From: Candidatus Lambdaproteobacteria bacterium RIFOXYD2_FULL_50_16
GTDB lineage: Bacteria > SAR324 > XYD2-FULL-50-16
DNA: 64,000 bases
Reading direction: 5' to 3'
Assembly: GCA_001783695.1 (NCBI GenBank)
Contig: MFNE01000030.1
Coordinates: 11,884-75,883, forward strand
In this document: piece by piece, positions 1 to 34,592 of the stretch
Position numbering within the stretch: position 1 is the stretch's first letter
How the letters are laid out: each line of letters opens with the position of its first letter
Translations under genes and position numbers: made by a program
The notes under the pieces: model-generated
The model's database searches: none
The model's input: the letters and a program-made list of their open reading frames with translations, nothing else
Told to the model about the DNA's origin: nothing

Positions 1-975
1 GCAGCGGCAGCTTGGGCCACTTCGGTTGCAGCGGCAGCGTCAGCCGCATCGCTGGCGGCGGTGGCCGCAGCCGCAGCCGAATCGGCTGCGTCACTAGCGG
101 CTTGGGCGGTTTGGGCAGCAGCGTCTGCCGCGGCAGACTGGGCGGCTTCGCTCGCGGCCGTCTCGGCGGCAGCATCAGCGGCAGCTTGGGCAACGTTGGC
201 TGCATCAGCGGCAGCCGAAGCTTGAGCCGCTTCGCTCGTAGCAGAAGCATCGGCCGCATCACTGGCAGCGGTGGCATCAGCGGCGGCGGCTTGAGCGGCA
301 GCAGATTCAGCTAAAGCGGCCGCTTCAGCCGCATCGGCTTGAGCAGCGGCCTGATCCGCTGCGTCACTAGCAGTAGAGGCTTGAGCAGCAGCAGCTTGTG
401 CCGCATCGGCAGCCGCTTGGGCGTCGGCGGCCTGGGCCGCTTCGGTAGCAGCAGTCTCGTCTGCCGCATCACTAGCAGCAGTGGCTTGAGCAGCAGCAGC
501 TTGGGCCGCATCGGCAGAGGCTTGGGCGTCGGTGGCCTGGGAAGCTTCAGCAGCGGCAGTCGCGTCCGCAGCATCACTGGCGGCGGTGGCTTGAGCCGCC
601 AGATCCGCAGCCGCTTGAGCGGCTTGGTCGGCAACAGCAGCGGCTTGATCGGCAGCGTCACTAGCAGCAGTCGCCTGGGCCTGAGCCTGGGCCGCAGCGG
701 CTTCGGCAGTGGCCGCATCGGCGGCAGCTTGATCAGCAGCATTGCTGGCAGCCGTGGCATCAGCTGCTTGAGCAGATTCGGTTTGGGCAGCGGTCTCAGC
801 AGCGGCAGCTTCCGCCTGGGCGTCAGCCAAGGCTTGATCGGCGGCGTCACTGGCGGCAGTGGCCGCTTGCGCCGCTTCGGCAGCAGAGGCAGCAGCGAGA
901 TCAGCAGCAGCACTCGCAGCAGCGGCTTCAGCAGCAGCTTGATCGGCCGCATTACTGGCGGCAGTGGCATCGGCT
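1..975 (-). repeat. Coding repeats with ATAAS[DN]AAD motif spaced at 35 or 28 residues (70 once)
   Basis: Motif recurs at spacings 35, 35, 28, 28, 35, 35, 35, 70 aa, all multiples of 7. Confidence 0.8.
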
Positions 976-2243
976 TGGGCGGATTCAGCTAGGGCCGCAT
1001 CAGCCGCCGCTTGTTCTGCTTGGCCTAATTCAGTTTGAGCAATCGCTTGAGCCGCTTGGGCGGCTTCTTGAGCTAATTCAGCAGCGGCTTGGGCATTTGC
1101 TGCGGCTTCAGCAGCAGCTTCGGCCTGTCCGGCCTCAATAGCGGCTGTTTCTTGAGCGGCAGCTAATTGAGCCTCAGCGGCGGCTTCGGCGGCTTGAGCG
1201 GCTTGACTAGCGGCAGCAGCAGCAGCGGCTTGCGCTGATTGGCTGGCGGCTTCGGCTTGGGCGGAGGCGGCAGAAGCTTGAGCAGCGGCGGCCTGAGCGG
1301 CTTCGGCTTGGGCAATCGCGTTGGCCTGTTCTACGTTGCCCGCAATGGCATCAGCCAACGCCTGGGCCCCATCTGCATTAGCCTGAGCAGCATCGGCAAT
1401 GGCTTGTGCCTCGGCGGCAGCATCAGCAGCTACTTGAGCAGCAGCAATGGCGTCTTGGGCGGCAGACTCTAACGCGGCTTGAGCTTCGGCTGCGGCCTGT
1501 GCAGCTTGCGCCGCATCGGCAGCCGCTTGAGCGGCAGCAGTGTCAGTCGTATCTGTCGTATCTGTAGCTGTCGTAGTTGTATCGGTGGTACTAGTTGTCG
1601 TCGTAGTTGTTGTATCAGAGGTAGTGTCCGTGGTGGTATCAGACGTGGCAGTTGTGTCCGTGGTCGTGGTGGTTGTAGTGACGGTGGCCGGGTCAAAGGT
1701 GGCGGTAGCGCCTGTAGTGGGTGTAGCGGGAGCTTGGTCTGCAGGTGCGGTAGAAGCCGCTTCAGCAGCGGGGGCGGCTTGGTTCTGGCTGACTAGAAAT
1801 TCTTCTGGGGCGGCGGACTGCTGGGCTTGAGTCGAGGGACCAACATCCATACCGAAACCGCCTTGTTCAGCCGCTTGCTCTTCTTGAACATCTTGGGTTT
1901 CTTGATCTGTGGCTTGAGGGGCAGCCTGAGCATTTTCAACCGCTTGATTCGCCTGGGTTGCTTGGGCATCTTCGCTTGCCTGGTCACCTAGGTCTAATTC
2001 AGAAGACTTCGCGCTAGAAAAGTTGGAGGATATAACCCCTTCTTGAGCTTCCTTTTCGAAGGTGGCTTCCGACTGTCCCACCACTACGGGAGCCGCATCA
2101 CCAGAGGCTTCTTCCCCTTCGATCTTGCCTTCCTCTTGGCCGCTGAAATTCTTCTTTTCAACGTCCGCAAGGTTAGTGAGTTCGTCAAACTCGATGGTTT
2201 CTTTGGATTGCTCTTTGCCTTTGCCTTTTTCTTGATCAGCCAT
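1..2243 (-). CDS. Large Ala-rich repetitive protein, probable type I secretion substrate/adhesin (N-terminal part; runs off left edge)
   Basis: Minus-strand frame open from ATG at 2243 (MADQEKGKGKEQSKETIEFDELTNL...) to position 1, checked by hand across most of the region; Thr/Asp linker (TTTTTTTDTTATSDTTTDTT...), then Ala-rich repeats (ATAASDAADQAAA...). No signal peptide. Directly downstream of HlyD/ABC genes. Missing from the ORF track, presumably because it has no stop in the window. Confidence 0.88.
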   Translation of the reverse strand, partial: MADQEKGKGKEQSKETIEFDELTNLADVEKKNFSGQEEGKIEGEEASGDAAPVVVGQSEATFEKEAQEGVISSNFSSAKSSELDLGDQASEDAQATQANQAVENAQAAPQATDQETQDVQEEQAAEQGGFGMDVGPSTQAQQSAAPEEFLVSQNQAAPAAEAASTAPADQAPATPTTGATATFDPATVTTTTTTTDTTATSDTTTDTTSDTTTTTTTSTTDTTTTATDTTDTTDTAAAQAAADAAQAAQAAAEAQAALESAAQDAIAAAQVAADAAAEAQAIADAAQANADGAQALADAIAGNVEQANAIAQAEAAQAAAAQASAASAQAEAASQSAQAAAAAAASQAAQAAEAAAEAQLAAAQETAAIEAGQAEAAAEAAANAQAAAELAQEAAQAAQAIAQTELGQAEQAAADAALAESAQADATAASNAADQAAAEAAAASAAADLAAASAAEAAQAATAASDAADQALADAQAEAAAAETAAQTESAQAADATAASNAADQAAADAATAEAAAAQAQAQATAASDAADQAAAVADQAAQAAADLAAQATAASDAADATAAAEASQATDAQASADAAQAAAAQATAASDAADETAATEAAQAADAQAAADAAQAAAAQASTASDAADQAAAQADAAEAAALAESAAAQAAAADATAASDAADASATSEAAQASAAADAANVAQAAADAAAETAASEAAQSAAADAAAQTAQAASDAADSAAAAATAASDAADAAAATEVAQAAA

Positions 2244-2399
2244 GTTCCCCTCAACCGATTATGGGCGCGTGCCCGTTATTTTTCTGACTTGAATATAGCA
2301 CAAAACAGGCAATTGACAATAAATCATTGCAGGTTCGCGCTGGCTAATGTTGGGTAATGCTCGTTTGTTGCCGGTTTAATGCCCTTTTATGGGAAAGTA

Positions 2400-2429
2400 C
2401 GCCCACTTTTTAAAAAATAAAAGTGGGCG
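2400..2429. other. Perfect 11-bp inverted repeat with 8-nt loop between hlyD and substrate gene (possible attenuator/terminator)
   Basis: CGCCCACTTTT-taaaaaat-AAAAGTGGGCG. Confidence 0.6.
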
Positions 2430-2440
2430 ATTTCCCTGAA

Positions 2441-3559
2441 TTATCGCTCAGTTAGAGCCCGCTGGGAGGAAGAATATACCGGCTTGAGCAGGTAATGGAA
2501 GATGGTTTTACTACCCGTTTTGATACTGGCGTCTAAGGTCATGCCCGGTAATATCGGGTTGGCGCCAGGGACCTCCCCTAAAAAGGGTTTTTCAAAATCG
2601 ACTACTGCTTTGTAATAAGGCTGCCCGGTCCGGTCCAAAAAGGTAGCCGCCGAAATCTCGCGCAGCACCCCAGCCATACCGCCATAGCGAGAATAGTCGT
2701 AGGCCGTGAACTTGAGTTTGACCGACTGTCCAGGTTGCACATGGCCAATATCTTTAGAAGAGATCTGCACCTGCGCGAAAAGCTTTCGATCAATGGGGAC
2801 AATCTCCATGATCACTGCCGCAGGGGGCAAGATCCCGCCTAAAGAGTGGGCCGAAAACCCGTGAACCGCCCCCGTTGTTGGGGCGCGGATGGTCAATAAA
2901 TCCAGTTTTTCTTGTACTAAGGCAAGTTCACTGCGAACCAAGGCCAAGTCTTCATTGTTTTTGGCCAATTCCTTAAGGGTCTTTGCATTTTCGGCAATCT
3001 CTTCCATCTTGGCCTTGTATTGCTCAACCTGATTTTGAAATGCGGCCCTGCGAATATCACGATACAAAACCAAAAGCTTTAAAATCTTGTCCTGATCTTT
3101 TCGAAACTGCGCTGATTGTGGGTCATCTTCAGGGACGGTTTCACTAAACTGAATGACCCCTTTTTCTTCTATATAGGATTCTAACCGCCGCTTTTCAGCG
3201 ACCAAATATCGCTCCTGGGCTCGAAGCTGTTTTTGTTGGGCACGAATTTCTGGGTTGTCTAAAACCAACATAGGTTGGCCCTTCTGAACGATCTGTCCTT
3301 CTTCAACAAAAATATCCAAAACAATCCCGCCAGAAATGTGCTGTACCGGCTGTATTTGCCCGGTGGGGATGATCTCACCTTTGGCCACGGCAATCTCGTC
3401 CACCTCGGTAATCATCGACCAAGCTAAAAACATCACAAATACCGCCAAGGAAAAGGCCACGATCAACCTCGTGATAAAGGCCCCACCTGACTCCTCTAAC
3501 AGAATCGACTTGGAAAGGTGTTGTGATTCGAGTCGTAGAAACTTTTTAAGTCGTTCCAT
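2441..3559 (-). CDS. HlyD-family type I secretion membrane fusion protein
   Basis: N-terminal TM, VAKGEIIPTGQIQPVQHISGGIVLDIFVEEGQIVQKGQPMLVLDNPE biotinyl-lipoyl-like motif, C-terminal APTTGAVHGF and PGMTLDASIKTGSKTIFHYLLKPV. Confidence 0.93.
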   Translation of the reverse strand: MERLKKFLRLESQHLSKSILLEESGGAFITRLIVAFSLAVFVMFLAWSMITEVDEIAVAKGEIIPTGQIQPVQHISGGIVLDIFVEEGQIVQKGQPMLVLDNPEIRAQQKQLRAQERYLVAEKRRLESYIEEKGVIQFSETVPEDDPQSAQFRKDQDKILKLLVLYRDIRRAAFQNQVEQYKAKMEEIAENAKTLKELAKNNEDLALVRSELALVQEKLDLLTIRAPTTGAVHGFSAHSLGGILPPAAVIMEIVPIDRKLFAQVQISSKDIGHVQPGQSVKLKFTAYDYSRYGGMAGVLREISAATFLDRTGQPYYKAVVDFEKPFLGEVPGANPILPGMTLDASIKTGSKTIFHYLLKPVYSSSQRALTER

Positions 3560-3566
3560 AGTTTTC

Positions 3567-5696
3567 CTAAGCGCCCAAAAATTTGGGCAATATTTCCTCT
3601 TTGCTGCCGTAGGCCCGCATGCGGCCCTTTTCGAGCCAGAGGATTTTGTCAGCTAGCTCGATAAAACTCAAATGGTGAGTGGCTATCAAGATGGTTGAGC
3701 GGCCTTTGATTTTTCTAATCTCGTTTATAAAGGCGGCTTCTTTTTCGGCGTCACCAGACAAACCAAACTCAGGGTCGTCAAATAAAACCAAGCTGGCCTC
3801 TTTTAAAAACACCCGTGCCAGACTGATTCCTTTGCCTAATTTTTCGGCTAACTCGCCCATAGTACGGCTGTTGGCAAAGGTATTAAACCCTTCAGGCAGT
3901 TCCATGATTTCGTCATAAATCGAGGCTTTACGGGCCGCCTCCCAGATCTGCTGACTAGTGGCGGCAGGATTGGCGAGGCGCATGTTTTGGGTTAAGGTGC
4001 CATGGAAGAGTTGGTTCGATTTGGGCACGTAACCGATTGATTTACGAAGTGTAATCGGGTCAATCTGGCGCAGGTTCATGTCGTCGATCAATACCCGCCC
4101 CGCTTGCGGGTGGTAGTAACCTAACACCAACTTGAGCACCGTCGATTTACCCGCCCCATCATGGCCAACAATCGCCAAGGTTTCTCCCTGTTTTAGGTCA
4201 AACTGAACCGCCAAAAGGGCGGGTGGAGCCTCGGGATTGTAACGGATGGAGACGTTGTTAAAGGCCAGTTTGCCGTGAATACTTTTGGTCAAAGACATGT
4301 TTGTGTCGATCCGGGTTTCGATATTCATCGACATTAGCCGGTCCAATTGGTTGACACTTTTGCCTAATTTTCCGACCTGAGTGATAATCCCCAATCCGGT
4401 CTTTACCGGCGCTAACACCCGCCCTAAAAGTAACATACAAGCCATCAAAGCCCCAACCGACATCCCCCCGCCAATCACCTGATACACCCCAACGGTCATG
4501 GTGGCCAAACTGGAAAAGGTCACCAGTGATTGGCTGGTTGTACCAATCAATGCGTTTAGGCGGGCGGCGTAAAAGCTGTTTAAGGAGGCCTTGGCCGAAA
4601 TTTCCCGGTATCTCTGGCAAAAAATACTGGCACTACCGGTAAACTTAATTGCCTGAAAATTCGAAAGCATATCGAGCAAAAACTCTTGCCGCTCGGACGC
4701 GGCTTTAGAGGCCTTGGCGTTGGTTTGTTTAACCAACGGGTTGATAGCAAAAGCGAAGGCAATAAAGATTAAAATGGAAATGGTCGGAATATAGGCGACC
4801 GGTCCGGCAATAACTACCATGCCCACGATCAGCATGATCACAAAGGGCAGTTCAACTAGGGCCGTAAAACCGGGGCCTGCGAAAAACTCGCGGATCGATT
4901 CAAAATCCTTAATGTGAGAGATTTGGCTGGCTAAGCTAGCCTCTTCGGTGAAGCCCGGTGGCAGATAGAGGATACGCCTCAGTACTTCAATCCCCACAAT
5001 ATTGCCCATACGCACACTTACAAAACCAAACAACCGACTGCGAAGCACACGAAAACCAAAATCGCCGATCACAAAGATAAAAATCCCCATAACCAAAAAC
5101 ACCAAGGAGTAGGTCGATTCGGCAACCAACAACTCGTTATAGATGGTCATAACAAACATCGGAGAAATAAAGGTAAAAACCGATAAAATAAAGGTAATGA
5201 TCAACCCTAACATAAAGGAGACTTTAAAACGCCCTAGAGCCTTGGCGAACCATTCTTTTTGGGGTTTTAAAAATTCAATTTTGTCTGATTGCAAGGACTC
5301 GAATAACAAGGCCAAACCTTTGATCGGCTCTGAGGAGATTTGTTTGTAGGTGGCCGACTTACCGTCAAATATTAGTAATTTTCCCTCGACCTGCTCCACC
5401 AATACCTGCGCCGTCCCCCCTTCGGGCACCCAAATACAGGGCAAAAGCCTGGGGTCTAGGTGATCAAGCTGGGTTGAAACCCCTTTGGATTCAAACTTTA
5501 GGATGGCCAAGGTGTTACGGAATTCGGCCAAGTCCATCTTCGAGGCCATGTAGCTATGAGCTTCGGCCAATTGAGATTGGGTCCCTAACCAACCCAAACT
5601 ATCAAGTAAGGGAACCAAGCAATTAGAAAAGGGGCTCCGCTTTTTAAAACGGGTTCTTAATTTAAATCGAATGGACGATTCGTCGGGCCGGTTCAT
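3567..5696 (-). CDS. Type I secretion ABC transporter (C39-like N-terminal domain, TMD, NBD; intact Walker A, degenerate signature)
   Basis: TMD plus Walker A GHDGAGKST, Walker B LVLFDD, H-loop IATHH; LSGGQ position reads LAEKL. Confidence 0.9.
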   Translation of the reverse strand: MNRPDESSIRFKLRTRFKKRSPFSNCLVPLLDSLGWLGTQSQLAEAHSYMASKMDLAEFRNTLAILKFESKGVSTQLDHLDPRLLPCIWVPEGGTAQVLVEQVEGKLLIFDGKSATYKQISSEPIKGLALLFESLQSDKIEFLKPQKEWFAKALGRFKVSFMLGLIITFILSVFTFISPMFVMTIYNELLVAESTYSLVFLVMGIFIFVIGDFGFRVLRSRLFGFVSVRMGNIVGIEVLRRILYLPPGFTEEASLASQISHIKDFESIREFFAGPGFTALVELPFVIMLIVGMVVIAGPVAYIPTISILIFIAFAFAINPLVKQTNAKASKAASERQEFLLDMLSNFQAIKFTGSASIFCQRYREISAKASLNSFYAARLNALIGTTSQSLVTFSSLATMTVGVYQVIGGGMSVGALMACMLLLGRVLAPVKTGLGIITQVGKLGKSVNQLDRLMSMNIETRIDTNMSLTKSIHGKLAFNNVSIRYNPEAPPALLAVQFDLKQGETLAIVGHDGAGKSTVLKLVLGYYHPQAGRVLIDDMNLRQIDPITLRKSIGYVPKSNQLFHGTLTQNMRLANPAATSQQIWEAARKASIYDEIMELPEGFNTFANSRTMGELAEKLGKGISLARVFLKEASLVLFDDPEFGLSGDAEKEAAFINEIRKIKGRSTILIATHHLSFIELADKILWLEKGRMRAYGSKEEILPKFLGA

Positions 5697-7073
5697 CTAG
5701 TAACTTATGTCAGGGTGACTATAAAGCTCGAAGTCCACATCGTTGATGTGGTTAATCCAGGGCCTTAAAACCATCGTTTTCACCTTGGGCGAAAAGGCTA
5801 AGTTTCCCACTTTAAGGTGGGAGCGTAAATCAGCTAAGTCTTGCAAAATTTCGTCGTGTTGCCTTTTGTGCTCGCGGTACCTAAAAGGGATCTCCAGCGC
5901 CAACCAAGCCTCTTCTTGAGCAAAAAACTGCCTACCTAGGTCGTGTATTTTTTGTAAGAGGTACACCGTTTCTTGGACCAAATCATCAAGGCGCGTCTCG
6001 CCGATTTCCCATGACTCAATAACCAACACCAAGTCTAAAATCTTATCGGTTAGTTTTCGGTGGGACTCATCCAGCCAGTCCATACCGGTGCTGCGCAGGA
6101 AATATTTGGCCTCGTTCCAGTTGCGCACCTGTTTTACTACGGTGGTTAAAATACTCGCCTCCGCGAAGGTCTCCGCATCCACTTCGTTTATATGGTCGAT
6201 CCAGACCAAGATCAAAGAATCTCTAATTTCTTTGACAATACCAGCCCGACAACGGACCAAGTCGTCTCGTAGCGACTCTAATTGTTTAATAATGCGGTAA
6301 TGTTCTTCAAGGTGGAACTCTTTATTGGGTAAATTGAATCGCTCAATGAGCACCCGCTCGCGAGCAAAATGTTCGGCCATTTTAGAGGCGATAATCTGGA
6401 AATGGTCTTGAAGCTGCGCCCCTAATTTATCCGGCAGGAATTGAAGTGCCTTGTTTAGCTTGATAATGGAAACCAAAATATCTTTGTGATCATGGTCCAC
6501 ATATTCAATCCCGAGGTTATGGATTAAAAGGGCCACATGGTCCCACTTTTCCGCGTGGTCCACGATGTTTTGGTGCCAGCGAGAAAGGGTGAAGGTTCGT
6601 CCGTCGGTTTTGTTGACATGGGCGATCATCCAGTCTTGTAAGAAAAGTTTTAAAAGCTGGCCGATCTTGAGTTTGCCTGCTTTAAAGTCCGAGATCATCC
6701 CTTGTAGGGTGTCGATAAAATATTGGTGTTCTTCTTTTTGCTGTGGGCCACCCTCTAAGAGGTATTGCTCTATCATCCACTCTTCGCGGTCAAACTGTTC
6801 GGTGACAAATTCCAAAACACCTTGGAGAAGTTTTCCTTGGGCTTGAATAAAATCCATGTCCCTGGGTTCGTCTTCAAGTAGGTCTTGCAACCGGTTGTTT
6901 TCAAGTACAAATAAAACCATTTGCTTGAAATATCGCTGCATAAAAAACACACCTGTACGAATAATAATTTTGCCAATATCAGGTTGCACCCTTGCAGTCT
7001 GCCAGACCCAACGCTCCCAAGACTGTTGCCGTCTTTCTTCTAGGGTCATGTCTTTTTCTTCGATCATCAGCAT
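5697..7073 (-). CDS. Three-domain hemerythrin-like protein
   Basis: Three repeats ending WMIAHVNKTD / WIDHINEVD / WINHINDVD; middle domain keeps the DHDHK, HFARE, HLEEH and HINEVD ligand pattern. Confidence 0.82.
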   Translation of the reverse strand: MLMIEEKDMTLEERRQQSWERWVWQTARVQPDIGKIIIRTGVFFMQRYFKQMVLFVLENNRLQDLLEDEPRDMDFIQAQGKLLQGVLEFVTEQFDREEWMIEQYLLEGGPQQKEEHQYFIDTLQGMISDFKAGKLKIGQLLKLFLQDWMIAHVNKTDGRTFTLSRWHQNIVDHAEKWDHVALLIHNLGIEYVDHDHKDILVSIIKLNKALQFLPDKLGAQLQDHFQIIASKMAEHFARERVLIERFNLPNKEFHLEEHYRIIKQLESLRDDLVRCRAGIVKEIRDSLILVWIDHINEVDAETFAEASILTTVVKQVRNWNEAKYFLRSTGMDWLDESHRKLTDKILDLVLVIESWEIGETRLDDLVQETVYLLQKIHDLGRQFFAQEEAWLALEIPFRYREHKRQHDEILQDLADLRSHLKVGNLAFSPKVKTMVLRPWINHINDVDFELYSHPDISY

Positions 7074-7075
7074 GG

Positions 7076-8839
7076 CTATTCCTTAGGAGAAAAGAGGTTG
7101 ATCTCGATATTGCGTGGCCGAGTCTGAGTAGAGGCCCCCATTTTGGTCAATCGGCCCTTTTTAAGGCTAAAGCGGCGGTCGGCCTCGGCTAAATATCGCT
7201 CATGTTCGCTAACCAGAATTATCGTGCAGTTGCCCTTTAATTTATCGAGTACAAACTTAAAGACCCTTTTTGAATCCACATCGGCCACATCCAAGACCCG
7301 GTTGATCAAAAAAATTCTTGGCCTGACTACCAACGCGCGAGCAATGGCAATTCGGTGCAACATCCCCGAGGGCAAGACGCTATTGGTATGACCCCCGACC
7401 AGGGTTTCGTATCCCTTGGGCAACTGGGCCACCATTTCGTCGAGTTCAATTAGGGAGGCGGCATCTAATGCGGAGGACTTTTTGCGGGTATCAAATAGGG
7501 TGATATTTTCTAAAATCGTACCCCGAAAAAGGTAACTGTTCCCCGAAAGATATTCCATCCGACCTTGCAGGTTAGTATGATCCCATTGGAAAATATCATA
7601 CTTATCAATCAACACCTGCCCGTGGCTTGGATTGAAAACGCCACACATAATCAAAAGCATATGGTTAGTGGCGATGGTATCGGTAGAAGAAATGCCAATC
7701 ATCTCGCCAGGATTGATGGTCAGGTTGATTGACTCTAAAATCGGCTCACCTGTGTTTAGATTGTGGTAAGAGACGTTTTTAAGTTCAATCTCCCCTTCAA
7801 TGGCAGATGGGAAAGGGGGGGCTCCAGGTTTGGTGTCAGGCTCGGTACGGGCGATTTTAGAGATTTTTTCTTGTAAAAGATCGGCTTCTGAAAGTTTTAG
7901 CCAAAAGGTCGCCGCTGCCTGCACCGGGCCCAAGGACCTTCCACCTAGCATGGTGCAAGCCGTCAGCCCACCTACCGTCAAAGTTCCTTCTAAGACCCGC
8001 CCTGCCCCAAAACCGATGGTGCCAAACATAATCGCTTGAGAAAACAAAAACCCGATGTTGCTAGGCATGGCGTTCCAAAAGTTCACCCGCATGTTCGAGG
8101 TAGCGGCGTTTGCCTGAAGCCGTTCATAACGGCGCAACATCTGCTCTTCCATGGTCAGGCTTTTGACCTGGCTAATGGCGTCTAAGATCTCAATAATAAA
8201 GTTATATCGTCGGTCGGTCTGGACGGATTGTTCATTTTGGGCGGTTTCCAGGCCCTGTTTGAAATATTTAATAACCCATAAATAAAGCAGAATCATAACA
8301 ATTGGGAACAACACCAACCATCCACCTACAAAGCCAATCGCCAGCAGGAATAAAACCAAAAAGGGCAGGTCTAAAAGCATTTGGAACGCTTGGCCGGCGT
8401 AAAAGCTTTTAAGCTGGCCCACGGTGTTCAGCCGGTCGAGATGAACCCCCACTTCTTCCGATTGGAACCGGGCCAATTGACCCGATAAGAGGCGATTGAC
8501 CGCAGAGCAGCTAAGTAAGTGTTCAAAACGGGCCGCCATCCAACTACTGATCCAGCTTCTGGCGTAGCGCAGCGCCCATTCTAAGCTAAAGGCGATGATA
8601 CAGCCAAAAACCAGCCAGATTAGGGTATCTGTGGTATGGTTGCGGATAACTCGGTCATAGACCTGCATCAAGGTTAGAGGCAGACCTAAAGAAAAAACGG
8701 TAATCAAGCCAGAAGCCACTGCAATCTGTTTAGAACCGACCCAAAGGTGTTTCATCGCCTTGAGTTGCTCAAGCAGGGTGCCCGGATTTTTAAAGTGGTC
8801 GATTAAATCGACCGGTGCTGTTTCTTCAGGATTGGTCAT
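7076..8839 (-). CDS. Type I secretion ABC transporter paralog with degenerate NBD
   Basis: ABC TMD; Walker A position reads ISSTDTIATNHML (no GK[ST]), signature LPSGMLHRIAIARAL, Walker B position IFLINRV. Confidence 0.88.
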   Translation of the reverse strand: MTNPEETAPVDLIDHFKNPGTLLEQLKAMKHLWVGSKQIAVASGLITVFSLGLPLTLMQVYDRVIRNHTTDTLIWLVFGCIIAFSLEWALRYARSWISSWMAARFEHLLSCSAVNRLLSGQLARFQSEEVGVHLDRLNTVGQLKSFYAGQAFQMLLDLPFLVLFLLAIGFVGGWLVLFPIVMILLYLWVIKYFKQGLETAQNEQSVQTDRRYNFIIEILDAISQVKSLTMEEQMLRRYERLQANAATSNMRVNFWNAMPSNIGFLFSQAIMFGTIGFGAGRVLEGTLTVGGLTACTMLGGRSLGPVQAAATFWLKLSEADLLQEKISKIARTEPDTKPGAPPFPSAIEGEIELKNVSYHNLNTGEPILESINLTINPGEMIGISSTDTIATNHMLLIMCGVFNPSHGQVLIDKYDIFQWDHTNLQGRMEYLSGNSYLFRGTILENITLFDTRKKSSALDAASLIELDEMVAQLPKGYETLVGGHTNSVLPSGMLHRIAIARALVVRPRIFLINRVLDVADVDSKRVFKFVLDKLKGNCTIILVSEHERYLAEADRRFSLKKGRLTKMGASTQTRPRNIEINLFSPKE

Positions 8840-9226
8840 CGGCCTTATAGAAACCTGGTTAAGGTGAAGGACTCCGATTATGCAAAAGACGGTCCTTTAT
8901 CCCTATAAAAACCCGCGAATTCAACCTGCCTATTAGTCGAGTTTTTAGATGTACCCTAAACCGCTCCCTTTTATAGGGCACTCTCCTTAGGTCAAAGTGC
9001 CTATTTTTTGCATAACCTTCACCCTATATCCAATTTTTGGCGCTTGGTCCTTGATCACTAAGGGTTCAGCGGCAATTTACCCATCAGCAAACCTTTGACC
9101 TTTTTCAAATCTTCCGCTAGGGTGAGGCCAATTAAATTGCTTGGCGAACAAAAAGGAACTTAGTTTATTTTTTGGGTATAAAAACCCAGGGAAAACTTCC
9201 TTGGTCTGCGACGGTACTCGGAACCT

Positions 9227-10636
9227 ATGAGGGGAATTGGCGTCTTTTTGCTCTTTTGCATTTGGTTTGCTCCTGAACTAAGGGCGGTAACCCTACAAGA
9301 GACCTTGCAAAACGGTATGGCCTCGGAAGAAGCGCAGTCTGAATTTTCCAGGAGTCACCAGGCGATTGATTATCGGGCAGAGGAGGTGGACGAACTGACC
9401 GTCAAAAGCAAACTGACATCAAAATTTGTCCGCTCTCGTAATGATTTGGCCGACACCCAAGACGTGGCGGTTACCGCTTCAGATAAATTTACTAGACAGG
9501 TCGCCTATACCCAGACCTTTGACATGGGCCTTGAGTGGAGCCTGACCCACTATGACCGAGATGAAAACCCACTTAATTCGGGTTCGTCCAAGTCTTTTTA
9601 TGGCAAGGATATTTTTGATATTTCGATGGCGATTTGGGGCTCAAGACTCGATAAAGAACGGCTGACCTCCCAAAAAAGGGAGATTGAGTTGGAAGGGGAA
9701 CAGGCTAAAACCAGCGGGGTCGAACGGCAGTATCAGGTTGAATTGGCAAAGGCCTATTTGGATTATTATCTGGCTCAACAAGAAGCCCAACGCAAAGCAA
9801 AATTAGCCAATCTGACCTTTCAAAAATTGCAGTTTATGGAATCCATGGCGCGGCGTGACGCTCCCATGGAATATCAAAACCTGCAAATGGAAGCCTTGCA
9901 GGCAAGGCATGAAGAGGCCCAAGCCCAGGTTAGGGCGGAGCATTTTAAACAACTTTTAGAACTCGCCCAAGGTTGGCCGGTTAAAGACGAGGCTCTACTA
10001 GAAGAAGCACGGCCCCGGATGTTAAAGGCAGAAGAATTGGCCAAACTTTACCAAAACGGGGATCAGGTAAAGGTGCTAGCCAGAAAAATTCGCACTGCCG
10101 AGCGGGACCTAGGGATCGAACGGGCAGGATATCAGCCCGAAGTGATTATTGGGGGATTTACGGGCCGCACCAACAACGGCTCCCAGGACGGTTTTAGCAA
10201 AGGAACCTATGTGGAGATCAACTACCGCTTCGGCGGCGGGGGCTGGGAAAAGGCCTCGCGGTTAGCTTTGGAGCTTGAAGAACTAAACCTTGATCTGGTT
10301 GACTTAAAAAATCAGCAGGTGCACCAAGCGGCTGCGGATTCGGCTGAACTCAAGATGGCGGCTGAGATGGTGGTTATCAAGACCAAACAATTAGAGATTG
10401 CCCGGGGGATTACCAAGCAATCGTTGCAATCCTTCGGGGTGGGGCAGCAGGGGCATTTAGAACTGGTTGGCTACCAAGAAAAGGAGATTAACACCGAGGC
10501 TGGATTAGACAAAGCCAAGGTGGATTTATGGAAAAAACTGGCCGATATCGCCCAAAAGGCGGAAGTCGATCTTTTAGAATTGGCCGGATGGCCTAGTTCG
10601 TCTAATCAGCCGGAAAACTTCCCGGCACAACCATGA
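9227..10636 (+). CDS. TolC-family outer membrane efflux protein
   Basis: Signal peptide and long helical repeats (QVELAKAYLDYYLAQQEAQRKAKLANLTFQKLQFME) typical of OEP; divergent from T1SS genes. Confidence 0.85.
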   Translation: MRGIGVFLLFCIWFAPELRAVTLQETLQNGMASEEAQSEFSRSHQAIDYRAEEVDELTVKSKLTSKFVRSRNDLADTQDVAVTASDKFTRQVAYTQTFDMGLEWSLTHYDRDENPLNSGSSKSFYGKDIFDISMAIWGSRLDKERLTSQKREIELEGEQAKTSGVERQYQVELAKAYLDYYLAQQEAQRKAKLANLTFQKLQFMESMARRDAPMEYQNLQMEALQARHEEAQAQVRAEHFKQLLELAQGWPVKDEALLEEARPRMLKAEELAKLYQNGDQVKVLARKIRTAERDLGIERAGYQPEVIIGGFTGRTNNGSQDGFSKGTYVEINYRFGGGGWEKASRLALELEELNLDLVDLKNQQVHQAAADSAELKMAAEMVVIKTKQLEIARGITKQSLQSFGVGQQGHLELVGYQEKEINTEAGLDKAKVDLWKKLADIAQKAEVDLLELAGWPSSSNQPENFPAQP

Positions 10637-10649
10637 TCGAGACTTAACA

Positions 10650-12890
10650 ATGAGATACTGGCTTTCTTTGATCTGCTTAATACTTTTCGCCTCTTCGGCG
10701 ATGGCCAAGGAACTGGTGATCACCCGCGACAATACCCCAGAGTGGAGTTTTGACCGCCCGATCTGGGCTGAACTGGTTTTAGGGGAGGTCGTAGCCCACA
10801 ACCGCGCGGTGGCCAACCTAATGGCTCACTATAAAACCCAACCCTTGCTAAAAGCCTTAAGCGACGAAGAGTCGGCCGCCTTAGGGCATGGCATGGTCTG
10901 GTGGGATTTTCGCGCCTTGCCTAAATACCCTTTAAACAACAGCCATGGCCTCTATTTCGAAGCTAATTTCCGCGCCACCGAAGACGACTTGACCCTCAAG
11001 TCGGGGATGATGCTAAACAAACGGCTTTCCTGGCTTTTAGAACTACGAGAACGTTTAAAAGAGCAACAAAAAGAATTAGAAGACGCCAAGGCTGGACAGT
11101 TTGTTAAAATGGCCCAAGCGACAGACCGGCTTTATAACCTTTTGGGCCAAATCAACGTCAACAGCCCCATGACACCTGCGCCTTTTAAAGACGGTTTAGA
11201 AGCCCTGCTTAACAAGCAGTCCGAAGCCCGCCAAGCGCAAATCCGTGCGATTGAAGACGAGGTTGACCCTTTAGCCCAGCTTAACAAACAAAGGGCCTTT
11301 TTTGAAGCCGAACTCAAACGCAGAGAAGAACTACTGGCACACAACACCCACCTGTTCCCAGTAAAAGACGACGAGGCCGGGCTTTTGGCCCAAGCCGAAC
11401 GGCTCAAAGCTGAATTTAACTTCTTTTTAGGTTCTATCCGCATCTATGAAGCCCAACTTAACCGAGAACGGGCTAGAGCGTTTGAGGAAGTCCGCAGGGA
11501 ACTAAAAGCCAAACAACCAGAACCGCCAGATCGTGAAAAATATCCGGCTCCCGAGGCTTATGCCAAGGCTCAAGAAGAGTTCCGCTCGGCGATTCGGGCT
11601 AGCTTAAAAGAGCTAGAGGTCACCAAAAGGCAAAACCAAGCCTTAGAGGCTTTAAAAGAAGCGGAAGCAAGAGTGTGGTTAGGCGAAATGGCTACCCAAG
11701 TTTTAAAACCACGGCTAGAAGCTTTAAGTAAGTTAAAAAACCAGCGGGTGACCGTAGAGGATAAAGACCTCCGTTTTGTGGTTAAAGGATTGGATAAGGA
11801 AGAGCTAGGGGTTCGTTTTGGTTATAAAGGAGCCAATTGGGACCAGACTTTCCCTTCACAAACGATGTTAAATAAGGACGATTTTACTGTAGCCGGGCTT
11901 TGGCGGCTGGCTAGTCCTGATGAAAAACGGATGTACTTCACCTTTGCCGGGGTAACCCTAACCCACAAGCCCGATTCAAAGACACGGTCCTATGAATTAA
12001 CCGACCCTCTGCCCTTTTCTGAAGAAGCGGTTTACGAAAAATATGCGATTGCCGACACAGATAAAGCCCGGATCGAGACTAAAAACCTCAACTACGCCCA
12101 CCGAATGCAAGACAAGCTCTGGGACAAAGAGCTAGGAATGGAGTTTGTTTTGGTGGACGGTGGCTGTTACCAGATGGGTTGTTCGCCCAAGCAACGTCGC
12201 GACGCCGATGGTAATCTTTATTCTGCCAATGAGTGTGAGGAAAACTCTCAACCTGCTCACGAGGTCTGTTTAGATTCGTTTTTATTAGCCAAGTTCGAGA
12301 TTACTCAAAAAATTTGGGAACAAGTGATGGGCTCCCAACCCTCCAAGTTTGCTAAGGGACCCGATTTCCCGGTCGAGTCGGTCACCTTGACCGACGTGCG
12401 TGCCTTTTTAAGTAAGCTCAAGTCCCAAGGCAAAAACTACCGCCTGCCGACCGAGGCCGAGTGGGAATTTAGCTGTCGAAGTGGCAAACAGATGGACTAT
12501 GGCACCTCTTCGGGCGCGGCTAACCACGATCAAGCCAACTTCGAATACACCGGAGGCCGAGACCGGTGGGGCGAAACCGCGCCCGTGGGCTCTTTCCCGC
12601 CCAACCTCTTGGGGCTTTACGACATGAGTGGCAACGTTTGGGAATGGGTTGAAGATGGCTATGACGCCAACTACTATGCCTCCAGCCCCAAAAACAACCC
12701 TCTCAATCAACAAAGTGGAGCCAACGTGCTTAGGGGGGGGTCTTGGCTAAGCCATAGCTCGAATCTTAGCTGTTACAAACGGGTGATCAACGCCCCCGAA
12801 TACACGAACTTTACCGTTGGTTTTCGGGTGGTCCGCGAGGACGCCGAGGGTAATAAACCTGAAGCGGCTCCGGCGGCCAAGTCCAAGTAA
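10650..12890 (+). CDS. Secreted coiled-coil protein with C-terminal formylglycine-generating-enzyme-like (SUMF1) domain
   Basis: Signal peptide MRYWLSLICLILFASSAMA; FVLVDGGCYQMG, YRLPTEAEWEFSCR, GLYDMSGNVWEWVEDGY, VLRGGSW, VGFRVVRE. Confidence 0.92.
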   Translation: MRYWLSLICLILFASSAMAKELVITRDNTPEWSFDRPIWAELVLGEVVAHNRAVANLMAHYKTQPLLKALSDEESAALGHGMVWWDFRALPKYPLNNSHGLYFEANFRATEDDLTLKSGMMLNKRLSWLLELRERLKEQQKELEDAKAGQFVKMAQATDRLYNLLGQINVNSPMTPAPFKDGLEALLNKQSEARQAQIRAIEDEVDPLAQLNKQRAFFEAELKRREELLAHNTHLFPVKDDEAGLLAQAERLKAEFNFFLGSIRIYEAQLNRERARAFEEVRRELKAKQPEPPDREKYPAPEAYAKAQEEFRSAIRASLKELEVTKRQNQALEALKEAEARVWLGEMATQVLKPRLEALSKLKNQRVTVEDKDLRFVVKGLDKEELGVRFGYKGANWDQTFPSQTMLNKDDFTVAGLWRLASPDEKRMYFTFAGVTLTHKPDSKTRSYELTDPLPFSEEAVYEKYAIADTDKARIETKNLNYAHRMQDKLWDKELGMEFVLVDGGCYQMGCSPKQRRDADGNLYSANECEENSQPAHEVCLDSFLLAKFEITQKIWEQVMGSQPSKFAKGPDFPVESVTLTDVRAFLSKLKSQGKNYRLPTEAEWEFSCRSGKQMDYGTSSGAANHDQANFEYTGGRDRWGETAPVGSFPPNLLGLYDMSGNVWEWVEDGYDANYYASSPKNNPLNQQSGANVLRGGSWLSHSSNLSCYKRVINAPEYTNFTVGFRVVREDAEGNKPEAAPAAKSK

Positions 12891-12895
12891 AAGCG

Positions 12896-13483
12896 ATGCA
12901 GTTACTCCGCCTTTTAGATAAAAACCTCGAGATTCGGGTCGCCTATTTAAGTATGGTGGCCCGAATGGCAAGTGCTGATGGCACCTTGGATGACGAAGAA
13001 TTAGCCTTTCTGCGTCATAAATTAGAGGTGTTTGCCATCCCAGAAGCCGAGCAAACCCAAATCTTAACCCCGGCTAAGCTAGACCCAACCGAGTTGCAAG
13101 CGGTTTTTCGAGAATTGGTCAAAGAAAACCTGCATTACAGCTTTTTGCTCGATCTGATTATTATGGCGGTCGCCGATGGGCACATCCAGAACCGGGAGCG
13201 CGAAATGTTGCAAAAGGTTAAGCAATACATTGGCATACCCAGTTCAGATTACCATAACCTTATCAACTTCGCTCAGGCTTCAGCCGGTCGCGACGACATC
13301 GAAAAGATCGATCCCGCTCACCTCAACGTTTTAGAAAGTTTCTACCGCTGGGCCAAAGAATTCTTGGTGCCCCTTTACGACCAAACCGGTTTTGCACTGA
13401 ACCCCAAGGTGGACCAAGACCTCAAGGAACTCTTTGAAGAACTCACCGCTGAAGATCAAGACGAAGACTCGGATTTGCTGTAG
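12896..13483 (+). CDS. TerB-like domain protein
   Basis: RVAYLSMVARMASADGTLDDEELAFLRHKLEVFAIPEAE and a second ADGHIQNREREML motif. Confidence 0.72.
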   Translation: MQLLRLLDKNLEIRVAYLSMVARMASADGTLDDEELAFLRHKLEVFAIPEAEQTQILTPAKLDPTELQAVFRELVKENLHYSFLLDLIIMAVADGHIQNREREMLQKVKQYIGIPSSDYHNLINFAQASAGRDDIEKIDPAHLNVLESFYRWAKEFLVPLYDQTGFALNPKVDQDLKELFEELTAEDQDEDSDLL

Positions 13484-14821: not shown

Positions 14822-16984
14822 ATGAAAGAGATTTTTGATCCGATGGTTTTATTAACTGCCTTAGGTGTACTGGTTGCTGCCATTGGGGTATTTGTAACCT
14901 ATCTCCAATATGATAAGACAGCCGCCAAGTCCCCAAAAATCGATCCCCAAATCATTCAACTCGATTACCAAAGCTCCATCACAAATTTAGCCCATCCAGG
15001 GATGGGTCTTACAGGGTCCCTTACTCAAATCGGCCAACAGATCAATCATAATTACGGCCTCACGGAATCACAACTACAGGATTTAATTAAAAACGTAATA
15101 AAGACTTTACCTAATGAAAATGAAGCCAGTCAGAAGTTGGAAAAATATATCCGTTTAGCGTCGGAATACAAAGAGTTGGCAGAAAAAAACTTGGCAGGGA
15201 ACAAACTAGCCCAAGAAGCGCAGGAAGCGGTGACTGGTGGGCGGCTCGACGAGGCCTTGGCCCTCTACGACCAATCCGAAGCCGCTTGGGCAGAATTAGG
15301 GGAGCAGGCCAAAGCCTTCCAGGCAGAGGAATACTTTGAGGCCGCCAAGATTTTAGAGTTCCAATGCAAATACCCGCCTGCCCTTCTAAAAATCCAAGCC
15401 GCCCTCCAACTAGCCCCCAACCGTTGGGAGTTTAATAACCTTTGGGGGGTTTTGTTAGTGGATACAGTGGACTATCAAGGAGCGATCCAGGCCTTCCAAA
15501 CCGCCCAAACCCAACTCCCCAACCCCCAAGGGGTGGAAGCGGCGAGCCTATTTAACAACCTGGGTAATGCTTGGAGTGAGCTAGGCGAATATGCCAAGGC
15601 CATCGAATTTTACGATCAAGCCTTGCCTATCTTTAAAAAGGCCCTAGGGCCAGAGCATGTTTCTGTGGCCCAAACCTATAACAACCTGGGTACTGCTTGG
15701 AGTGATCTAGGCGAATATGCCAAGGCCATCGAATTTTACGATCAAGCCTTGCCTATCTATAAAAAGGCCCTAGGGCCAGAGCATGTTTATGTAGCCTCAA
15801 CCTACAACAACCTGGGTTTGGCCTGGGCAGCGCGGGGCGAATATTCCAAGGCCATCGAATTTTACGATCAAGCCTTGCCTATCTATAAAAAGGCCCTGGG
15901 GCCAGAGCATGTTTATGTAGCCCAAACCTATAACAACCTGGGTACTGCTTGGAGTGATCTCGGCGAATATGCCAAGGCCATCGAATTTTACGATCAAGCC
16001 TTGTCTATCTTTAAAAAGGCCCTAGGGCCAGAGCATGTTTCTGTGGCTCAAACCTATAACAACCTGGGTAATGCTTGGAGAAATCTCGGCAAATATTCCA
16101 AGGCCATCGAATTTTACGATCAAGCCTTGCCTATCTATAAAAAGGCCCTAGGGCCAGATCATGTTTATATAGCCCAAACCTACAACAACCTGGGTATTGC
16201 CTGGAGAAATCTAGGCGAATATGCCAAGGCCATCGAATTTTACGAAAAGGATTTGAAAATTACTCTAAAGGCCCTAGGGACAGAGCATGTTTCTATGGCC
16301 CAAACCTATAACAACCTGGGTACTGCTTGGAGTGATCTCGGCGAATATTCCAAGGCCATCGAATTTTACGAAAAGGCCTTGTCTATCTTTAAAAAGGCCC
16401 TAGGGCCAGAGCACGACTATCTGGCTCAAACCTATAGCAACCTGGGTACTGCCTGGAGTGAGCTAGGCGAATATGCCAAGGCCATCGAATTTTATAATCA
16501 GGCCTTGCCTATCTTTAAAAAGGCCCTAGGGCCAGATCATGTATCAGTAGCCCAAACCTATAGCAACCTGGGTACTGCCTGGAGTGAGCTAGGCGAATAT
16601 TCCAAGGCCATCGAATTTTATAATCAGGCCTTGCCTATCTTTAAAAAGGCCCTAGGGCCAGAGCATGTTTATTTAGCCAAAACCTATAACAACCTGGGTT
16701 TGGCCTGGGAAGCGCGGGGCGAATATGCCAAGGCCATCGAATTTTACGATCAAGCCTTGTCTATCTATAAAAAGGCCCTAGGATTGGACCACCCTGATAT
16801 AGCGGGAACCTCCTTAAATCTTGCCCTGGCATACGAGGCTCAAAGTGAGCGGCAAAAGGCCTTAGTTTATGCCCAACAAGGGATGGCGATCTTTGAAAAA
16901 AACTTCGCCCAGCTTAACCCCAACCACCCCGATCTACTTAAAGCCCGCCGAGTCCTAGCCCACATTGAGGGCTCAACCCTCTAG
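14822..16984 (+). CDS. Membrane-anchored kinesin-light-chain-type TPR protein
   Basis: N-terminal TM (MVLLTALGVLVAAIGVFVTYL) and 42-aa TPR units NNLGxAWxxLGEYAKAIEFYDQALPIxKKALGPEHVxVAQTY; RBS gggaggggttt before ATG. Confidence 0.92.
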   Translation: MKEIFDPMVLLTALGVLVAAIGVFVTYLQYDKTAAKSPKIDPQIIQLDYQSSITNLAHPGMGLTGSLTQIGQQINHNYGLTESQLQDLIKNVIKTLPNENEASQKLEKYIRLASEYKELAEKNLAGNKLAQEAQEAVTGGRLDEALALYDQSEAAWAELGEQAKAFQAEEYFEAAKILEFQCKYPPALLKIQAALQLAPNRWEFNNLWGVLLVDTVDYQGAIQAFQTAQTQLPNPQGVEAASLFNNLGNAWSELGEYAKAIEFYDQALPIFKKALGPEHVSVAQTYNNLGTAWSDLGEYAKAIEFYDQALPIYKKALGPEHVYVASTYNNLGLAWAARGEYSKAIEFYDQALPIYKKALGPEHVYVAQTYNNLGTAWSDLGEYAKAIEFYDQALSIFKKALGPEHVSVAQTYNNLGNAWRNLGKYSKAIEFYDQALPIYKKALGPDHVYIAQTYNNLGIAWRNLGEYAKAIEFYEKDLKITLKALGTEHVSMAQTYNNLGTAWSDLGEYSKAIEFYEKALSIFKKALGPEHDYLAQTYSNLGTAWSELGEYAKAIEFYNQALPIFKKALGPDHVSVAQTYSNLGTAWSELGEYSKAIEFYNQALPIFKKALGPEHVYLAKTYNNLGLAWEARGEYAKAIEFYDQALSIYKKALGLDHPDIAGTSLNLALAYEAQSERQKALVYAQQGMAIFEKNFAQLNPNHPDLLKARRVLAHIEGSTL
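15554..16813 (+). repeat. Ten tandem 126-bp coding repeats (42-aa TPR)
   Basis: Read directly; very high nucleotide identity between units. Confidence 0.93.
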
Positions 16985-29000: not shown

Positions 29001-31325
29001 TTAACTCCGTCCCCCAATAAAGGGGGCGTAGCCTAGGTCCACAATCATGATATGGTTTTGCAACCACTCTTTTAAGAACTGCAACAATGGATCGCCGATC
29101 TGCTCTTGGCCAGATTCGATCGCCTTCACATGCTCCGTGAGTTGACCGATAATCTTTTTATGGCGCGCTAAGTGGGCAGTTTTGTCGGTGTAGTTCGAAG
29201 ACATAAAGATTCCTTCTTCCTCACTGAAGTGATTAACCGCCACCTTAGCCAGCCTTTGAATGGCGTCAATTTGCTCGGGCTGTTTGGCCTTGGCCATCTT
29301 CAGTTTATATAGCTCATTGATACCGTCCACAATCAGCTTGTGTTGGGTATCAATAGTATTGTTGCCGATTAATAAGGCATCGGTCCAGAAAAAGAAGGTG
29401 TCACTGTTTTTAGAGAAGACCCCAATCGAGTCTTTAAGCGAGTTAGAAAGGGTCGAAAGCCGACCCAGGTTTTGGATGTTTTTCTCATTAAGCACCCCGT
29501 TATCCCCGATAGAGCGATTCATCTGGGCAATGCTGGTAGTGATTTCTTTTAACCCTTGAGAAATTTCCGAAGAGGTACGAGCGATTTCTTTAACCCCTAA
29601 AGCTGCTTCTGAAACGTTGCGGGCGGCAGACCTGGACGCGGCTGAAGCTTCGGAGGTGCTGCGAGTAATTTCTTTGATACCCGAGGCTGCTTCTTCGACG
29701 TTAATCGACGAATCCTTAACCGCCTTGGCCACCCCTTCAATCACATCTGCCAATTGTTTGGCATTTTTGGTTTGTTCTTCGACTAACGAACTGATTCCTT
29801 GGTTGATTTCTGAAACCTGCAAAATCACCTTGGAGACCCCTTGGGTCCGCACTGAACAACGCCCTACCAGTTCCTGAACCTGATCGATCTGTTGGGCAAT
29901 TTCGTTGTTGGCATCGGTAGTTTGCTTGGCTAGTTCTTTAACCTCACCGGCCACAACCGCAAACCCCTTGCCCGCTTGGCCTGCACTGGCGGCTTCAATC
30001 GTGGCGTTTAGGGCTAGCATGTTGGTCTGGCTAGCGATGTTGTTCACAAGCTGCAAAATCTGTCCAATCTGCTGGGTTACATCGCCCAACTCATTCATTG
30101 CCTTAGAGTTTTCCTCGGCCCCTTTGTTGGCTTCCAGCGAAATATGGCTTGCCCTTGAAGTACTCGCGTTAATGTTTTGTAAGGAGCTAGAAAGACTGTT
30201 GACCGCCTTGATAATCACCGTCTCGACGTCGTGGCTGATTTTGCCCACGTTGTCGCTAATCCCTGACATATTAACTGAGGCTTCTTCTGCGGCTGCCGCG
30301 ATGGTGTTCATGTTGGCGCTTAATTCTTCTACCACGGTAGTAATACTAGAAACGTTGGCGCTGGCTTCCTCAGAGGAACTAGCCATGGAGGCCATATTGG
30401 CGTTGATCTCTTCGGTCGCAGAACTAATCGAACCAGACATACCCGTCATTTCGGAGGAGGCTGCTTTGATTGAGTTACTGTTTTTATTAAGGTTTACCAC
30501 CAGGGAAGCGGTGGTATCACTGGCGCCGATAATCTCGCTGATGGTACCTTCGAGCTTGCCAATAAACTGGTTAAACCACTTGGCTAATTCGGCTATTTCA
30601 TCGTGGGATTTAACATGAATCCGCCGAGACAAATTGGCATCCCCCGAAGCGATATCCTTTAACATCGCAATAACATGATTCAGCGGGCCAGATATTTGCG
30701 CCGAAAGTACAAAGGAAGCGCCAATGGCTATGATTAGGCCCAAAATCAAACAAATCGTCAACAAGGTCTTTGCTTGGGCGGTGGCTTCTAAATCCTCGGT
30801 TTTGGCCTGATCCACTTCCACAGAAATTTCGGCGATAATTTGCCCCAAAAGGGCGGTATTTTCGGCCTTTACCTCGTCAAAGTAGTCATCTAAGTCAGAC
30901 AAAAGCTTGGTATCTTTGGCCCCGCGATTAATTTCAGGGATCAATTTGTTAAAGCCTACCTTTAATACTCGGTCAAAATTTTCAAAAATCTTTTTGAAAT
31001 TTTTCTGTTTGAGCTCGGTATCGGCAAAAGTCACGTAATGGGCTCGGTCTTCTTTGACTTCCTTAACAAAATCATTCAGGAAGGCAATTCGTTCGGCCTC
31101 AACCTTACCTGTCTCTTTGTCCGCCAGGATATCCATAAAATTCAGGACAAGCTGAATGGACATCAGGTTTAGATCTGCCACTGCTTCCGTAGCTTCGTGC
31201 TTTTTATTCAGCCGGTTAGCTGCTTCATGGCTCGAATTTAGCGCCCAGAATGCGACCATGTTGGCCGTAAAAAACACTAAGATGACGACGGCGAATCCCG
31301 CCCTCAGTTTGGCTCCGATTTTCAT
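29001..31325 (-). CDS. Methyl-accepting chemotaxis protein with C-terminal hemerythrin domain
   Basis: TMs, HAMP, MCP core [42 protein letters not shown]-terminal [29 protein letters not shown]. Confidence 0.94.
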
Positions 31326-34169: not shown

Positions 34170-34592
34170 CTATTTAACCCCAGCCTTGAGCAAGTGGGGG
34201 CTGTATTTCATATCTACCTCTAATATATGGCTAATCAACCAATCAAGAAGGTAGGCAAGCATGTCGGCGATGGCGTCGTTTAGTTCGGAGTCGGCCTTGG
34301 CTTGTTCCCGGTGGATCTTAATTTCTGAAAAAAAATCTTGGTGTTGGGTGCGGTGGTTGGCTAGATCGGCGTACTTGGTTTGGTAAAGCAGTTTTTCTTC
34401 ATGCTCGAAGTGGATACGGGCGTAGGCCTCTAACGCGTCAAACAACCTTTCGGCTTGAGGACGGTCGGTGGAGGGATCAAATTGGCGGTGCAAGACATTG
34501 ATTGCCATCAGCAGCTTTTGGTGCTGCTGATCAATCGAATCAATTCCGGTGTTCCAATCCGTTTTCCAAACTAACTTTTCGAATTGGACCAT
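34170..34592 (-). CDS. Bacteriohemerythrin
   Basis: DQQHQKLL, HFEHEEKLL, HRTQHQDFF, WLISHILEVDMKYSPHL - complete ligand set. Confidence 0.94.
   Translation of the reverse strand: MVQFEKLVWKTDWNTGIDSIDQQHQKLLMAINVLHRQFDPSTDRPQAERLFDALEAYARIHFEHEEKLLYQTKYADLANHRTQHQDFFSEIKIHREQAKADSELNDAIADMLAYLLDWLISHILEVDMKYSPHLLKAGVK

Follow-up and report, generated by a model that had tools for sequence, protein, structure and literature searches.

A multi-domain hemerythrin encoded between two degenerate half-exporters in a candidate type I secretion system of SAR324 and magnetotactic bacteria

Why is a hemerythrin encoded between two exporter genes? The question is raised by a 64,000-nucleotide stretch of DNA from Candidatus Lambdaproteobacteria bacterium RIFOXYD2_FULL_50_16 (SAR324; assembly GCA_001783695.1, contig MFNE01000030.1), which was analysed as a whole and is called the window here. 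Its first base is position 11884 of the contig, which is 117.6 kb long, and the source assembly comprises 3.14 Mb at 98% completeness. The window carries a gene set for two half-exporters of the ATP-binding cassette (ABC) type, named ABC-A and ABC-B here, with a hemerythrin gene between them, followed by genes for an HlyD-type membrane fusion protein and a giant low-complexity protein (Table 1). A preliminary description made from the sequence alone had proposed an undescribed type I secretion system (T1SS) at this place. Its open reading frames (ORFs) and their tight packing were borne out, with gaps of only 2, 0 and 7 bp between the first four genes, and Pfam and NCBIfam profiles, with which the gene families were assigned, confirmed the families named. 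The HlyD-type protein is encoded together with T1SS-type ABC exporters; the LssB model TIGR03375 matches both ABCs (E 1e-136 and 4e-99), with scores below the family cut-off.

The position of the hemerythrin gene is conserved. A hemerythrin search of 58 relatives returned, besides the window, only two genomes (G013 and G023), both with the ABC-A, hemerythrin, ABC-B and HlyD genes and a giant ORF nearby. G023 is the SAR324 cluster bin nPCRbin7 and belongs to the same class as the window's genome, of which about 52 genomes were sampled. Scanning 85,462 named genomes with two short peptide patterns, and therefore not exhaustively, gave seven loci, in SAR324 nPCRbin7, in Magnetococcales bins, in Magnetospirillum sp. 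SS-4 and in one alphaproteobacterial bin. Among 48 Magnetococcia genomes eight are carriers, four of them new (G071, G083, G084 and G088); SS-4 remained the only carrier when 386 Alphaproteobacteria and 297 genomes from the Magnetospirillum order were sampled. Two loci (L019:10407-13091 and L021:1-2685) share 2685 bp of identical DNA, with one bin labelled Magnetococcales and the other Alphaproteobacteria; they were therefore counted as one, and one of the two bin labels or assignments is wrong. In total 12 distinct loci were found in SAR324, Magnetococcia and Magnetospirillum SS-4, and every one of them has the hemerythrin gene flanked by ABC-A and ABC-B in the same orientation; most junctions are short gaps or overlaps. 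One of the carriers, SS-4, comes from a genus of which laboratory strains exist.

The preliminary description had staked its proposal on a recurrence of the gene order in relatives, and the order does recur: the ABC-A/hemerythrin/ABC-B core is present in 11 further distinct loci and the exact five-gene order in five other loci (G023, G059, G061, G084 and G088). Elsewhere the flanking genes are rearranged. In G062 and G063 the HlyD gene is divergent and located upstream of ABC-A, with the giant ORF after ABC-B; the giant ORF of G083 diverges from ABC-A, and that of G013 is found about 3 kb farther on, past a second HlyD-like gene, a TolC gene and two genes on the opposite strand. The contigs of G060 and G071 end too early to show the full order. 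Pairwise identities of hemerythrin, ABC-A, ABC-B and HlyD correlate at 0.91–0.97 across the loci, and the four proteins thus co-evolve. No plasmid-borne copies of the hemerythrin were found.

TIGR02481 and NF033749 each match three stretches of the window's hemerythrin, and its AlphaFold model (mean pLDDT 82.8) consists of three four-helix bundles, in agreement with the triple hemerythrin described before. The hemerythrin profile matches DcrH-Hr and bacteriohemerythrin. A Foldseek search with the model gave a probability of 1.00 and target TM-scores of 0.72–0.78, the weak E-values reflecting an alignment of only a third of the chain. As a family mark, the linked hemerythrins share an N-terminal WxRWxxQTAR motif; six from Magnetococcia have four domains. 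The first His of HxxxH is Gln in domain 1 (12/12) and in domain 2 (10/12), and the last domain has an intact HxxxH at 11 of 12 loci. Of the window protein's three domains the second alone retains all seven iron ligands (five His, Glu and Asp); the four-domain proteins have the complete set in domain 4, with one or more ligands missing from each remaining domain. That a single ligand-complete domain stands beside ligand-poor ones speaks for sensing and not storage. Overall, 16 hemerythrin matches were obtained in the window's genome. The window also encodes a chemoreceptor whose C-terminal domain is a hemerythrin (29001-31325, minus strand) and a stand-alone hemerythrin (34170-34592, minus strand), and at the Magnetococcales locus L018 an additional single-domain hemerythrin (7669-8259, plus strand) is located 2 bp upstream of ABC-A.

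The two exporters, which the preliminary description correctly called degenerate, differ in what they have lost. The window's ABC-A is devoid of the Walker A Lys and the H-loop His, the catalytic Glu is replaced by Arg and the Walker B Asp by Asn, and the signature reads LPSG. ABC-B has an intact Walker A and has lost the ABC signature. Motif tables of 12 hemerythrin-linked ABC-A and 11 ABC-B sequences extend this pattern: in ABC-A the Walker A Lys and the catalytic Glu (now Lys or Arg) are gone in 12/12, the H-loop His is nearly always lost and the signature persists as [LM]PxG. ABC-B has an intact Walker A in 11/11; of its ten readable copies, nine retain the catalytic Glu and none has the LSGGQ signature. 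Judged by these motifs the proteins are paired half-exporters with one degenerate composite site, and only one composite ATP site, formed by Walker A/B of ABC-B and the LPxG signature of ABC-A, is predicted to be able to work. This make-up is compatible with an asymmetric ABC-A/ABC-B heterodimer.

ABC-A and ABC-B also occur without the hemerythrin, as operons or fusions common in Alphaproteobacteria and Magnetococcia. ABC-A matches at E <= 1e-110 were obtained in 42 of 48 Magnetococcia and in 128 of 297 genomes of the Magnetospirillum order, tallies that include the hemerythrin carriers. ABC-B directly follows the hemerythrin-free ABC-A or, as in Azospirillum, is fused to it, and HlyD comes next. 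Hemerythrin-free ABC-As score up to 697 bits versus at least 888 bits for complete hemerythrin-linked ones. In the tree the A paralogues and the B paralogues fall into separate, parallel clades, and the hemerythrin-linked ABC-As are a single clade (support 100/100) beside three Magnetococcia tandems, a sister group that is less sure because some branches, such as that of the window's ABC-A, are long. Grouping of the Magnetococcia copy G083 with Magnetospirillum suggests horizontal transfer. Walker A Lys and catalytic Glu are both kept in all 33 aligned hemerythrin-free ABC-As, and hemerythrin gain and ABC-A site loss map to the same branch. This co-occurrence is suggestive but amounts to one event. 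Since loss of the site coincides exactly with the clade that bears the hemerythrin, the family represents a natural experiment on the role of the degenerate ATP site.

We also analysed the probable cargo and the outer-membrane channel. The window's giant ORF runs about 4.8 kb past the window, to contig position 7111; two N-runs of 7 and 9 bases in its Ala-rich repeats hide the reading frame there, and the final frame has an acidic end (...DDLFGV). The giant proteins of the different loci are almost Cys-free and of low complexity, being Ala-rich (window), EP-rich (G059 and G061), T/D/E-rich (other SAR324) or A/P/V-rich (SS-4). An antifreeze-like reading of the Ala/Thr/Asp repeats was set aside, because substrates of these other compositions have the same N-terminus. 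This shared motif of about 30 residues reads roughly [ED][FL]DxxTVLxNVExxDxSAxE. A model of it from Magnetococcia and SS-4 detected the substrates of G023 (2.6e-12) and of the window (0.0035), the latter with 14 bits for a model built without the window sequence, and a SAR324 model detected that of G061 (9.8e-9). Among 2712 ORFs no unrelated one scored with the motif models; giant proteins of Azospirillum came next (0.5), which alone is not significant. Position and N-terminal motif point to the giant ORF as the cargo. Pfam and NCBIfam gave no RTX match in the substrate parts tested and no match to an N-terminal retention module in the substrates. LapG (PF06035) is absent from the window's genome (G000) and from G013, G023, G063, G059 and G088, and present in G061, G071, G083 and G084. 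With neither LapG nor a retention module found in the window's genome, a LapA-type adhesin is unlikely there. Of the divergent TolC/FGE-like/TerB-like set assigned to the system before, only TolC stood, and that in part: a TolC-type channel gene is adjacent in the window, G013 and G083 only, and a homologue of the window's TolC accompanies the system at a single other locus, G013 (E 4e-30). The FGE-like and TerB-like genes were rejected as parts of the system, since neither has a homologue at another locus.

Most carriers are magnetotactic bacteria, organisms whose way of life depends on oxygen gradients. Magnetochrome (PF18509) was detected in eight of the nine carrier bins tested (G013, G023 and G059-G064, two of which share one contig), the window's genome being the exception. 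Within the class of the window's genome the system is present in 2/3 magnetochrome-positive versus 1/49 negative genomes (Fisher p = 0.007). The genome nPCR_bin7 has been published as magnetotactic (PMC7602337). The exporter system and the magnetosome genes are located on separate contigs in G013 and G023, and the system also occurs without magnetochrome; it is therefore associated with magnetotactic bacteria and not a magnetosome component. A role in the magnetosome itself, which was considered and found without support, is further countered by its absence from 40 of 48 Magnetococcia. The near-restriction to magnetotactic carriers suggests export of a giant surface protein under oxygen or redox control.

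Our preferred explanation, which as a whole we regard as evenly poised between right and wrong, is an asymmetric T1SS with a hemerythrin subunit that gates export by oxygen. ABC-A and ABC-B would form a heterodimer within a dedicated system and, together with HlyD and the TolC channel, would export the giant acidic low-complexity surface protein encoded alongside. One of the two composite ATP sites would have lost its nucleotide-binding and catalytic residues, leaving the site of ABC-B Walker A/B and ABC-A LPxG to work alone. The multi-domain hemerythrin would be a cytosolic subunit docked on the ATPase pair, in which oxygen or a related oxidant bound at the ligand-complete di-iron domain might switch export on or off, so that release of the surface protein would be confined to the right part of the oxygen gradient. 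Direct oxygen binding is known from hemerythrin chemoreceptors, which are oxygen sensors (PMC12442639). ATP held at the degenerate site has been proposed to act as a glue in known exporters (PMC7756269), a role that may have passed to the hemerythrin here. Were the hemerythrin such a gate, secretion would be under direct oxygen control at the level of the machine and not of transcription. A more far-reaching version, tentative and on balance doubtful, makes the oxygen-binding multi-hemerythrin an obligate exporter subunit that replaces the ablated second ATP site, in a module spread horizontally among magnetotactic bacteria and releasing the giant surface protein at an oxygen set point.

Several findings weigh against an oxygen-gated exporter. 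Hemerythrin gain and ABC-A site loss are a single event, so their link may be coincidence. The two complete substrates (window's genome and G083) have acidic C-termini with no firm common motif, and a C-terminal secretion signal is only presumed. Further points concern the window copy itself: the catalytic Glu of ABC-B is Asp, two of the three hemerythrin domains (1 and 3) have lost ligands, and neither magnetochrome nor MamK was found in the window's genome, where the best MamK match reaches 33.6 bits versus at least 410 for true MamK. Together with the Asn in Walker B of ABC-A, the long ABC-A branch and the very long branch of the window copy in the hemerythrin tree (5.6), the latter points would also fit a drifting, non-working remnant in a non-magnetotactic descendant, the family itself being functional. 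We consider such decay improbable, as all genes are open, full length and tightly packed, one hemerythrin domain has the full ligand set and the cargo has kept its N-terminal motif.

The remaining alternatives concern the function of the hemerythrin in the family. Instead of acting as a gate it could hold or scavenge oxygen, nitric oxide, peroxide or iron and thereby protect or supply the exporter or its unfolded cargo. Roles of hemerythrins as carriers of oxygen and in defence against redox stress are known as well, and a protein with as many as four domains would make a suitable buffer. The replaced iron ligand in most domains fits this poorly, and a buffer needs neither strict placement between two ABC genes nor co-evolution and leaves the ABC-A site loss unexplained; we therefore judge it unlikely. 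A structural clamp in place of the dead site's nucleotide glue, with iron and oxygen of little weight, is favoured by the ATP glue proposed for known exporters (PMC7756269) and the missing Walker A Lys here, and the window copy does retain its three-domain fold in the AlphaFold model despite the ligand loss in domain 1. Every copy, however, keeps at least one HxxxH domain, and the other ligands (first His, HF..E and HIN..D) are highly conserved across phyla, which gives the clamp a low probability in our view. That the hemerythrin is an unrelated gene placed in the operon by chance is close to refuted: the many hemerythrin matches in the window's genome could make a fortuitous neighbourhood possible at one locus, but the junction is always the same at 12 distinct loci in three lineages, with matching distances.

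Table 1. Genes of the exporter locus and of the adjoining divergent set (window positions)
Feature	Coordinates	Strand	Description
ABC-A	7076..8839	-	587 amino acids; T1SS-type ABC half-exporter, no C39-like domain
Triple-hemerythrin protein	5697..7073	-	458 amino acids; three domains, cytosolic, between both ABC genes
ABC-B	3567..5696	-	709 amino acids; LssB-type half-exporter with C39-like N-terminal domain
HlyD-type membrane fusion protein	2441..3559	-	372 amino acids; TIGR01843 above cut-off
Giant Ala-rich acidic protein, N-terminal part	1..2243	-	Probable substrate; continues beyond window
TolC-like outer membrane channel	9227..10636	+	Divergent; PF02321 weak but above cut-off
FGE-like gene	10650..12890	+	Divergent set
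TerB-like gene	12896..13483	+	Divergent set

A scan for sigma-70 promoters gave no more sites than shuffled sequences. Homologous Cache-domain hybrid histidine kinases (462 bits) are encoded beside the system in SAR324 (L013:9444-12263, minus strand) and in a Magnetococcia genome (L038:309-2738, plus strand) and are a possible regulator. At L018:411-7242 three tetratricopeptide repeat (TPR) proteins neighbour the system, one of them carrying a sulfotransferase domain and another a family 41 glycosyltransferase domain; these may modify the giant protein. The window itself encodes a TPR protein (14822-16984, plus strand) whose kinesin-light-chain-like repeats, about ten of 42 residues each, are near-identical, and a TatC of 405 amino acids (31503-32720, minus strand), in which the 208-position model covers residues 18-372, seemingly with long insertions.

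Which parts of the system are new becomes apparent from a comparison with known systems. The MARTX T1SS (RtxB, RtxD and RtxE with TolC) likewise has two T1SS-type ABCs, RtxB and RtxE, one HlyD-like protein and a giant substrate; for MARTX both ABCs are reported as needed (PMC3034196). No hemerythrin is reported there, and the cargo is an RTX toxin in contrast to the non-RTX low-complexity protein here. The hemerythrin-free tandems of Alphaproteobacteria and Magnetococcia have orthologous halves in the same order and the same loss of the ABC-B signature, and the giant Ig-like protein of Azospirillum starts with a similar motif; they differ in keeping the Walker A Lys and catalytic Glu of ABC-A and often have no neighbouring substrate gene. 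With LapB/LssB systems the locus shares the giant substrate and an ABC-B that is nearest to TIGR03375 and has a C39-like domain, whereas the second ABC, the hemerythrin, the lack of LapG (window's genome) and of a retention module and the scores below the cut-off set it apart. TM287/288, TmrAB and TAP also combine one consensus-like with one degenerate composite ATP site (PMC7756269), but in the present system the Walker A lysine of the degenerate site is gone as well and a hemerythrin is linked to that site. Bacteriohemerythrin and DcrH-Hr share the four-helix fold and the ligand motifs; the proteins described here differ by three to four tandem domains, Gln at the first HxxxH His in most of these, their own N-terminal motif and the genetic link to an exporter.

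In the open-access full-text literature we found no paper joining hemerythrin with a T1SS in magnetotactic bacteria. To these bacteria the family adds an accessory system and its giant surface protein, which are absent from the papers found. The undescribed T1SS of the preliminary description holds for a conserved, hemerythrin-containing system and not for the two-ABC architecture, which is not new, since MARTX has two ABCs and hemerythrin-free tandems are widespread. Novelty lies in the conserved presence of a hemerythrin, in the loss of one ATP site that goes with it and in the occurrence of the system among magnetotactic bacteria.
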